From Candidatus Omnitrophota bacterium (GTDB lineage Bacteria > Omnitrophota > Gorgyraeia > Duberdicusellales > 4484-171), in the NCBI GenBank assembly GCA_023227945.1, contig JALOCC010000004.1, positions 1-64,000 of the forward strand: 64,000 nucleotides of DNA, given 5' to 3'. Below are positions 55,095 through 56,715 of this stretch, one piece after another. The notes beneath the pieces are model-generated. The model saw nothing but the letters and a program-made list of their open reading frames with translations. It was not told the origin of the DNA and searched no databases. Within the stretch, counting starts at the first letter, position 1. Every line of letters starts with the position of its first letter. Both the position numbers and the translations under genes were made by a program.

Positions 55095-55455
55095 TATAGT
55101 TTTATTTTACCATAAATAATTCCCAATTCTAATGTTTTTATTATCAAAAGCTTTTTTGTTTTCAATGTAAAACAGCTATACTGGAGCCCCACGGGTACGC
55201 CGAAGGCTTCCCGTGGTACCTTGCAATACGCCCCGTGGGGCGACATCCCACTCCACATTCATCCACGGGCGCAGCCTCGCCCGCCCTGCCCGCCTTACGG
55301 CGGGCGAGCAGGCAGGGTATTATGGTAAAGGGAATAAACTTGCCCTTTCACCTTGAAAAATATTTTCTGATGTGCTATATCTTAATTGCCCTAAGGCTAA
55401 ACTTTCTCAATGCGGCATCCAGGCCAACATTTGGGGTTTTGTTTTAAACTAACCC

Positions 55456-55564
55456 CAGGGGGCGATCAAGTCCTGAATGCCTGAGTTAAGTGCTTAGGGT
55501 AAAATATCGCCCCCTCTTCTTCTTAAGATTCCACGGTAAAACGCCGTGGAATCTTTATTTTTAA
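55456..55564 (+). ncRNA. Possible small RNA ending in an intrinsic terminator
   Basis: GGGGGCGAT pairs with ATCGCCCCC, enclosing CCTGAG-ttaagtg-CTTAGG. It is followed at once by a strong terminator. No confident plus-strand gene lies upstream in the window, so a structured RNA or the end of a longer transcript is inferred. No promoter was identified. Confidence 0.35.
55526..55564 (+). terminator. Intrinsic terminator
   Basis: AGATTCCACGG, a 7-base loop, CCGTGGAATCT, then TTATTTTT on the plus strand. The other strand has no T-run after the stem. Confidence 0.75.
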
Positions 55565-55701
55565 CCCCTTTTACCTGCTTGAACCAATCAAGATTGTAGA
55601 CTTTTTAAAGGCATGCCACGTCTAATTAAATGAGGCCAACATTTTTCCTGTATCTTCAGCTTGGAAAAATAATGTGCTTTATTCCAAAAAATTTATAGTA
55701 A

Positions 55702-55830
55702 TTTACCCCTTGCGCCTGTATATCGGTTAAATTTCCTGGTAAGAGACTGTGCCTGCAACCAGGAAATTTAACCGAAGCGCTGCGGGGTTAATTCGCCCCG
55801 ACGTAAGTCGGGGCTCATTAAGGAGGGTTT
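55702..55830 (+). promoter_or_regulatory. Structured leader RNA, copy 1
   Basis: Starts TTTACCCC, then GCGCCTGTATATCGG. A perfect 16-bp stem, CGGTTAAATTTCCTGG / CCAGGAAATTTAACCG (55724-55739 with 55759-55774), follows, then GAAGCGCTGCGGGGTTAA, which can pair back to the 5' TTTACCCC. A GCCCCGAC-gtaa-GTCGGGGC hairpin comes just before AGGAGG and ATG 55831. Homologous to copy 2 at 56435-56548. Confidence 0.75.
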
Positions 55831-56136
55831 ATGAAAAAAGTATTTGTAGCTTTAATTGCAGGGCTTATTATTATTATGTGCGCTAGTCCAGCTTACAGCC
55901 GCGATAGAAACCGGTATGACAAAAAAGTAACAATAAAAACCACGCCTAAAATAAGCGTGGGGTTATCGGCTTTAAATATTAAGGTGGATTTTTCGAGAGA
56001 CAGGCGTTTGATCTGGATACCAGGCTATTGGCAGCATGTAAACCATCGCAGGGGTTACGTTTGGGTGCCTGGGCACTTCGAAAAAAGAGCAAAATATTAC
56101 CCGGAAGGCAAGCATCTCAAGTATTGTGAAAGATAA
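55831..56136 (+). CDS. Small exported protein with YxWxxGxW-type repeats
   Basis: A 101-residue exported protein, the only convincing plus-strand gene. The signal peptide (VFVALIAGLIIIMCASPAYS) is followed by a basic domain. Two short repeats, IWIPGYWQHVNHRRG and VWVPGHFEKR, match the WxPGxW/YXWV repeat family of small envelope proteins. The C-terminus is basic (GKHLKYCER). It is preceded by AGGAGG and a folded leader nearly identical to that of the convergent lipoprotein gene, so the two are probably co-controlled. The role is unknown; related repeats occur in stress-induced or surface proteins. Confidence 0.78.
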   Translation: MKKVFVALIAGLIIIMCASPAYSRDRNRYDKKVTIKTTPKISVGLSALNIKVDFSRDRRLIWIPGYWQHVNHRRGYVWVPGHFEKRAKYYPEGKHLKYCER

Positions 56137-56251
56137 ATCCCGTTAGAAAATTCACTCCGTTAGATATTTTTTTTCTAACGTGATAAGCGATTATCTTATT
56201 CGGGCTTTAGGCTGTAAATTTAAAAAATTTGGAGCTTGAGGCCTGAAAAAT

Positions 56252-56434
56252 TTACCAGGTATTCTCTTCCATCCAGTTGTCTGCTCTTTTCAAATTCCTA
56301 CCGGTATTATAAACATCATCGGCTACGCCCGCCGCAATACGATGCACACCGTATGCAGTATTCTTTGCCGTTTCGCAGCCATTAAGAAGTGAAACAAACA
56401 CCAGAATTAACACCAGCAAAAATACCTTACGCAT
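56252..56434 (-). CDS. Small entericidin-like lipoprotein
   Basis: A 60-residue lipoprotein: signal with lipobox LNGC (VLILVFVSLLNGCETAKN), then a short helix-rich chain, TAYGVHRIAAGVADDVYNTG, ending in MEENTW. Size and composition recall entericidin-type lipoproteins, though sequence identity is too low to name it. AGGAGG lies just before ATG 56434, and the folded leader (56435-56548) matches that of the convergent gene at 55831. It probably sits in the outer membrane. Confidence 0.7.
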   Translation of the reverse strand: MRKVFLLVLILVFVSLLNGCETAKNTAYGVHRIAAGVADDVYNTGRNLKRADNWMEENTW

Positions 56435-56548
56435 TTATACCTCCTTAATTTTCCGCCTTGGGCGGAAAATTAACCCCGAAGCACTTCGGGTAAATTTCCT
56501 GGCCGCAGGCCGAGAAATTTACCCGATATACAGGCGCGAGGGGTAAAC
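56435..56548 (-). promoter_or_regulatory. Structured leader RNA, copy 2
   Basis: In mRNA sense: TTTACCCCTCGCGCCTGTAT, then CGGGTAAATTTC / GAAATTTACCCG (56525-56514 with 56498-56487), GAAGTGCTTCGGGGTTAA, a TTTTCCGCC-caa-GGCGGAAAA hairpin, and AGGAGG. Relative to copy 1, a T:A pair in the long stem is a G:C pair here. Confidence 0.75.
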
Positions 56549-56579
56549 ATAAAACCCTAAACACATAAACCAGTTGTTA

Positions 56580-56715
56580 GCCGATAGTCGATAGTTTCAT
56601 AGAAAAGGTTATTTTTATTTATACTAACGACTATCGACTGTCGAGAGCGAAGCCTCCCCGCAGGGGGGGCATAGTCCACAGTTTTTACTATGGGCTATCG
56701 ACTATGGACTATTGA
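56580..56715. repeat. Intergenic word palindrome, CGATAGTCGATAG family
   Basis: Between glnS and the entericidin-like gene. AGCCGATAGTCGATAG and CGACTATCGACTGTCG, the AGAGCGAAGCCTCCCCGC module, then AGTCCACAG and GGGCTATCGACTATGG. Relative of 49079-49166. Confidence 0.74.

Follow-up and report, generated by a model that had tools for sequence, protein, structure and literature searches.

Two gene leaders of an Omnitrophota bacterium are copies of a dispersed, likely mobile two-domain hairpin repeat found next to Shine–Dalgarno sequences

Cis-regulatory leader RNAs, such as riboswitches and ribosomal-protein leaders, form a structured 5' leader directly before the Shine–Dalgarno (SD) sequence. 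Small dispersed structured intergenic repeats include miniature inverted-repeat transposable elements (MITEs), BOX, ERIC and NEMIS. MITEs are marked by terminal inverted repeats, a duplicated target and an autonomous transposon to which they are related. The attC sites have R boxes (RYYYAAC/GTTRRRY) and belong to the gene cassettes of an integron. Part of the REPIN paper (PMC3116915) describes REPINs and REPs as short, non-autonomous, extragenic multi-copy hairpins that are moved by the Y1 transposase RAYT and amplified within a genome, and reports that compensatory changes are common in these mobile DNA hairpins. For attC sites, part of another source (PMC2727003) describes a conserved structure with little conserved sequence, an unpaired central region, a variable terminal part and one preferred folded strand. 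Here, we analyzed two gene leaders in a stretch of 64,000 nucleotides from a Candidatus Omnitrophota bacterium (contig JALOCC010000004.1, positions 1 to 64,000; hereafter the window). An initial annotation had interpreted them as a cis-regulatory RNA controlling two cell-envelope proteins. This interpretation is too narrow, as each leader is a copy of a dispersed repeat, hereafter the element.

The element is a multi-copy extragenic hairpin repeat and resembles REPINs in its short hairpins, non-autonomous character and amplification within a genome. Unlike REPINs, most copies adjoin SDs in one orientation, and the two domains of the element, D1 and D2, differ in structure, so that they do not form an inverted doublet of one REP. 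The element shares with attC sites a conserved structure, little conserved sequence, an unpaired central region and a variable terminal part, and a preferred folded strand is suggested for it; unlike attC sites, its copies precede chromosomal housekeeping genes. It resembles leader RNAs as an SD-adjacent structured 5' leader, but it has no apparent coherent regulon, no Rfam match and no sense-strand wobble, and it turns over between close relatives. In contrast to MITEs, BOX, ERIC and NEMIS as usually described, it faces the SD, and no clear target duplication was seen in the sites compared.

A repeat family abutting Shine–Dalgarno sequences

In a complete copy, the helix P1 (outer CCCC/GGGG, inner GCGC/GCGC or GCGC/GTGC, and a small internal loop) encloses the rest of D1. 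P1 is followed in order by the unpaired 7-nt loop CTGTATA, the long A/T-centred hairpin P2, the hairpin D2 and the SD AAGGAGG. The nearest genomes were found through the adjacent glutaminyl-tRNA synthetase and are G001 (locus L017, Candidatus Omnitrophota, 88% identity) and G002 (L018, 82%). The close relative G003 was drawn from the relatives of G001, and its YebC is 97% identical to that of G001 over 183 residues. The other relatives presumably belong to Omnitrophota, given their selection as relatives of G001.

A 15-base probe with at most two mismatches found 16 sites in G001, all of them with the element and one truncated (L113). In a 16-copy alignment made without structure (A2), both sides had changed at 17 of 34 pairs (58 cells, versus a shuffled mean of 22). 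With 104 rows fitted to the covariance model, both sides had changed at 32 of the 34 pairs (631 cells, versus a shuffled mean of 171), a count that includes two antisense artefact rows. The covariance model R1 additionally picks up near-palindromic copies in antisense, and the two antisense rows of alignment A3 were removed before the mismatch and SD-abutment counts below (n = 102). A covariance-model search of relatives, which the initial annotation had proposed as a check, yielded further copies with covariation in 32 of 97 relatives of G001 (R1, E <= 0.001). There were at least 35 matches in G001, at least 39 in G022 and at least 30 in G034, all lower bounds because no more than 39 candidates were scored in any genome. 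R1 matched none of 40 comparison genomes from the same synthetase search, which are mostly of other phyla; one of them, Zapsychrus, we take to be a member of Omnitrophota.

A pattern of D1 alone, which takes no account of D2 or the SD, found 44 D1 copies in G022 with at most three mismatches over 51 nt, 29 of them with none, and this genome shows recent amplification. These D1 copies are joined to several different D2 hairpins and are stacked in tandem in places. A 13-base pattern of the D2 foot and SD occurred at 147 sites in 38 of the 97 relatives, versus 10 sites for the reversed pattern, and it was also found in genomes without R1 matches. Many of the 30 D2-foot sites read by eye had a D1-like domain of different sequence upstream, and some sites fell inside genes and are due to chance (L272, L297 and L300). 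At loci L273-L296, other genomes show a similar arrangement of two domains with different kinds of D1 sequence, and the D2 brackets AATTCG...CTCATTRAGGAGG are the part most widely shared across genomes. Short forms without P2 still stand directly before an SD (L158:2172-2238, L153:1251-1316 and L302:1430-1495).

Several other searches added no copies. A long gapped pattern run over the genome contigs gave 0 loci, and the pattern match L097 in G002 was due to chance. Viral contigs contained 16 pattern stretches, all of them without a covariance-model match at E <= 0.01 and so taken as chance. The element was not described in titles or abstracts on Omnitrophota repeats, transposons and riboswitches, or in those on structured RNA motifs or hairpin repeats with SDs, in a literature coverage without most subscription papers. 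A second dispersed repeat family was seen in G001 (L144:2800-2867 and L158:2810-2920), with many short matches on both strands; those of the L144 stretch lie in G003, G028 and G034, and those of the L158 stretch in G002 and G028. A ZMP/ZTP riboswitch lies near an element copy in G049 (L126:1280-1363).

The SD starts at the first base past the last modelled D2 pair in 77 of the 102 aligned copies; in 3 it starts two or three bases further on, and 22 copies have none. The placement list also holds 102 copies, including L113, which was added by hand and left out of the stacking, gene-recurrence and upstream-ORF counts. An SD-like motif stands at the 3' end in 81 of these copies, and 77 have in addition an open reading frame (ORF) that is at least 40 amino acids (aa) long or open to the contig end. 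Because R1 was trained with the SD in its tail, D1-only probes were used as well for placement. With such a probe, 12 of 16 copies in G001 preceded an SD with a start codon, and two adjoined tRNAs; in G022, 25 of the 32 distinct copies read were followed by an SD and ORF and three by another copy. Among 4000 control positions drawn at random from the intergenic parts of the window, 46 led into an SD and gene. The copies are thus strongly tied to SDs, and the random intergenic placement that the initial annotation had associated with a simple repeat was not observed.

Most copies lie 5' of genes in the sense orientation, as expected of a cis-regulatory RNA. A tRNA is next to the 3' end in seven copies (five antisense and two sense), and Rfam confirmed six of these tRNAs, namely those whose loci were scanned. 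A same-strand ORF lies upstream of 82 of the 95 copies for which enough 5' sequence was present, and 44 of the 95 begin within 60 nt of its stop (crude ORF calls), suggesting that many copies are probably inside operons. The downstream genes, named from their N-termini by eye, include yebC, aroC, rpmF, rpmI, rplT, rpmE, ssb, folE, a NifU-like gene, ilvC, metK and nadA, as well as genes for rubrerythrin, glycosyltransferases and lipoproteins. No common pathway is apparent in this set, which also includes the tRNAs.

Turnover among close relatives and helix mismatches

The window locus is syntenic in G001 and G003. The first window gene, which encodes a WXXGXW-type protein, has a full copy in the window and an SD without the element in G001 and G003; in G003 an older D2-like hairpin adjoins this SD, and the window has a decayed counterpart immediately 5' of its copy. 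The second, a lipoprotein gene, has a full copy in the window, a short form without P2 in G001 (L302:1430-1495) and none in G003. Full copies before yebC, a glycosyltransferase gene and the gene after L158:1308 in G001, and a short form before the rubrerythrin gene, have no equivalent in G003. The element is therefore absent in G003, with gene and SD kept, at six sites (the two window genes and four others). R1 found nothing in five G003 loci (L303, L395, L396, L225 and L243) or three G002 loci (L397, L398 and L215), and by eye the aroC leader of G003 (L243) holds another hairpin. The G001–G003 comparison left out L144:4015 and 4807, where one flank only was aligned. Copies are thus present or absent at the same SD among close relatives, and we infer that the differences represent gain by insertion and not loss.

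Among 26 genomes with a yebC match, the yebC leader has an R1 match in G001, G034 and G062 and a D2-like hairpin in G072; no element was seen by eye in the remaining 22. A second, more divergent yebC in G034 also carries the element. The yebC contig C194 of G034 (L161/L214) is 96% identical to G001, versus 78% for the other yebC of this genome, and represents either contamination or recent transfer. Lipoprotein-type leaders were read on both strands at five loci (L017, L018, L302, L303 and L305) among 17 hits; at L305 (~1440-1500, G034), a D2-like hairpin was seen by eye before the SD of a distant lipoprotein-type gene.

A conserved sense-strand RNA is expected to exchange Watson–Crick pairs for G·U far more often than for A·C. 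Among the element helix mismatches flanked by Watson–Crick pairs, we counted 26 G·U and 51 A·C, whereas 44 tRNAs of the same loci had 22 G·U and 0 A·C (Fisher p 5e-9), a favourable control in that ARAGORN prefers G·U. In 44 of the 51 A·C mismatches, the 5' base of the pair is C and the 3' base is A. All pairs of A2, which was aligned without structure, gave 8 G·U and 20 A·C. The sense strand therefore does not show the excess of G·U over A·C of a cis-regulatory RNA, and it may be the opposite strand that folds. Covariation alone is no proof of RNA, since part of the REPIN paper (PMC3116915) reports compensatory changes in mobile-DNA hairpins.

The two leaders and their surroundings in the window

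Both leaders contain GCGCCTGTATATCGG with 0 mismatches, at 55712-55726 on the plus strand and 56523-56537 on the minus strand, and only two further near matches (3 mismatches each) occur in the window. The initial annotation had recognized these leaders as homologous and alike in fold, in agreement with the sequences and with fold stabilities far beyond those of 200 dinucleotide shuffles (z -5.8 and -7.0). The compensatory change from T:A to G:C that it reported in P2 is present, and the hairpin before the ribosome site, D2, indeed differs in sequence between the two copies.

In copy 1, sequence and fold place D1 at 55705..55788 on the plus strand, with P1 (ACCCC/GGGGT and GCGC/GCGC), the internal loop CTGTATA and the long hairpin P2. 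D2 follows at 55788..55821 (sequence and covariance match) as the hairpin TTAATTCG..CTCATTAA with a TC/CT internal loop, a type also found in other genomes. The SD AAGGAGG (55820..55826) stands at the D2 foot, and the covariance model matches 55701-55826 with 97 bits. The following gene (55831..56136, plus strand) encodes a 101-aa protein with a marginal WXXGXW match in Pfam (18.4 bits, cut-off 18). The initial annotation had not included the decayed D2-like hairpin 5' of copy 1 (~55630-55684, plus strand), which was placed by eye in an alignment of the window, G001 and G003 and has a weak fold, nor the dispersal of the family. Copy 2 lies on the minus strand, with D1 at 56474..56544 (sequence and covariance match), the D2 hairpin TTAATTTTCCGCC/GGCGGAAAATTAA at 56445..56473 (sequence, fold and covariance match) and the SD AAGGAGG at the D2 foot (56440..56446); the model match spans 56440-56548 with 116 bits. 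Its gene (56252..56434, minus strand) encodes a 60-aa lipoprotein-like protein, which has no Pfam family over the cut-off and belongs to a set of 13 related proteins with 68-100% identity, the window's own counted.

Folded by itself, copy 1 adopts the P1/P2/D2 structure. The lowest-energy fold of copy 2 alone pairs its 5' CCCC stretch with the SD and does not form P1, so that P1 in copy 2 rests on comparison with the family. An Rfam scan of the whole window at gathering score found one tRNA only, and a relaxed scan of the leaders gave matches only at E 1.6-8.4, all far under the gathering scores. The leaders thus have no match to a family in Rfam, in agreement with the initial annotation, which had recognized no known riboswitch class.

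Two other stretches lie nearby. A conserved non-coding stretch at 55386-55562 (plus strand) ends in a strong terminator-like hairpin and T-run and is kept in G001 and G003; the Rfam scan gave nothing near gathering score there, and the stretch may encode a small RNA, for example a 6S-like one. A ATAGTCGATAG-like sequence is repeated at 56560-56710, in the interval from the synthetase gene to copy 2, with no counterpart in the aligned stretches of G001 and G003.

Origin and possible movement of the element

We consider it probable, though by no means certain, that the leaders belong to a dispersed family of two-domain hairpin repeats, which is likely mobile and whose copies likely insert in a single orientation directly 5' of existing SDs. 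We favour a REPIN/MITE-like mobile element that probably works in the form of single-stranded DNA and prefers the 5' side of SDs. Like REPIN or attC-type elements, it would function through hairpins of folded single-stranded DNA; a putative enzyme would move it, and the target would be an SD or a comparable gene boundary, for instance the end of a tRNA. The element would then become the 5' leader of the gene on which it landed, and translation would be altered only incidentally. More tentatively, the SD itself could be the target: copies would land in the sense orientation and become leaders, later copies would stack between the old copy and the SD, and a putative single-strand recombinase would maintain a phylum-wide moving population of interchangeable leaders.

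Two enzyme families, the Y1 transposase and the integron integrase, were sought in 20 genomes, and neither was identified as the mobilising enzyme. Y1 transposase matches were found in 16 of the 20, including the copy-rich G022 (15 matches) and also G005, G010 and G012, which have no R1 matches. No match was found in the element carriers G001, G034 and G092 or in G003, although these assemblies may be incomplete. Because the copy-rich G001 and G034 have no Y1 match, unlike genomes with REPINs, mobilisation by an IS200/RAYT transposase is not supported. The integron integrase was over the cut-off in four genomes (G005, G010 and the element carriers G015 and G052) but in none of the copy-rich G001, G034 and G022; an integron origin is therefore not supported either.

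These null results weigh against a mobile element, and so do several other observations. No clean target-site duplication was seen in the six presence/absence comparisons. The G003 leaders of the glycosyltransferase gene and the gene after L158:1308 hold other sequence, so that two of the six G003 sites are not simple empty sites, and the compared genomes are draft assemblies in which gain versus loss was not polarised on a tree. An upstream stacking signature was found in 3 of 119 sequence windows versus about 1.4 expected, which is not significant; we therefore claim stacking only for the G022 pairs and the remnant in our window. When each genome and column was counted once, the excess of A·C (33) over G·U (22) was not significant (p 0.18). 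Furthermore, the 91 downstream proteins include 12 homologous cross-genome pairs versus 2.2 expected for random draws among 1500 genes, and such recurrence would suit a retained function as well. Of the 12, two are weak matches or paralogues, and a contaminant contig in G034 may lie behind the yebC pair L106/L161. The elements of the 12 same-gene pairs share an average identity of 0.69, versus 0.66 (sd 0.06) for random cross-genome pairs. Five pairs are above the random value (0.72-0.88); three of these involve the genes most alike (protein identity 89-96%), and one is a paralogous pair. The other seven (0.56-0.68) are no more alike than random pairs, and common descent of the elements at a shared gene was rejected on these values.

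Because of this gene recurrence and the SD abutment, a regulatory RNA and a partly domesticated repeat were kept as rivals. A cis-acting regulatory RNA, in which D1 would be a binding domain of the mRNA leader, D2 would couple it to the SD to control how a broad growth-related regulon is translated, and copies would have spread by duplication, appears possible but unlikely. It would account for the sense orientation at SDs, the compensatory changes in 32 of 34 pairs and the conserved unpaired loop, and the fold of copy 2 that pairs CCCC with the SD could be an off state; yebC, aroC, rpmF, rplT, ilvC and the NifU-like gene carry the element across genomes above chance. However, the helices have no G·U excess, unlike tRNAs, P2 is wholly missing in some copies (L158:2172, L153:1251 and L302), and 44 of 95 copies lie close behind a same-strand ORF by crude ORF calls. 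The same-gene pairs that are no more alike than random ones, the six sites without the element in G003 and its rarity before yebC also argue against this explanation. What remains of the initial annotation is a structured leader with compensatory change before gene starts. A riboswitch for two envelope genes is rejected: copies precede dozens of different genes that form no coherent set, seven adjoin tRNA genes (five antisense), a syntenic relative keeps both envelope genes and their SDs without the copies, and the helix mismatches are unlike those of a conserved sense-strand RNA.

A former mobile repeat, some insertions of which were kept because an SD-adjacent hairpin would keep the SD accessible or stabilise the mRNA, would unite the turnover, the gene recurrence and the almost direct contact with the SD. 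Across the full set there is no sign of sense-strand wobble pairs, and we regard this explanation, with its putative function, as improbable. An inert palindromic repeat that has neither enzyme nor target and arises when replication slips or switches template would fit the near-perfect palindromes of very different sequence and the Y1 and integrase searches, which identified no enzyme. It is very improbable, as 44 near-identical copies at different loci and the SD-facing orientation need a copying step and a target rule.

Compensatory changes before a gene start are usually read as a sign of regulatory RNA, and the element cautions that they can stem from a hairpin element at the DNA level. 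Tallying G·U and A·C mismatches is an inexpensive aid in distinguishing RNA from DNA hairpins. Close relatives have both full and element-free alleles of the same gene, which makes any leader function open to direct test. If the favoured explanation is true, the element would be a mobile element tied to translation start sites, reshaping 5' leaders genome-wide without breaking genes, and it would point to a putative new enzyme in a little-studied phylum.
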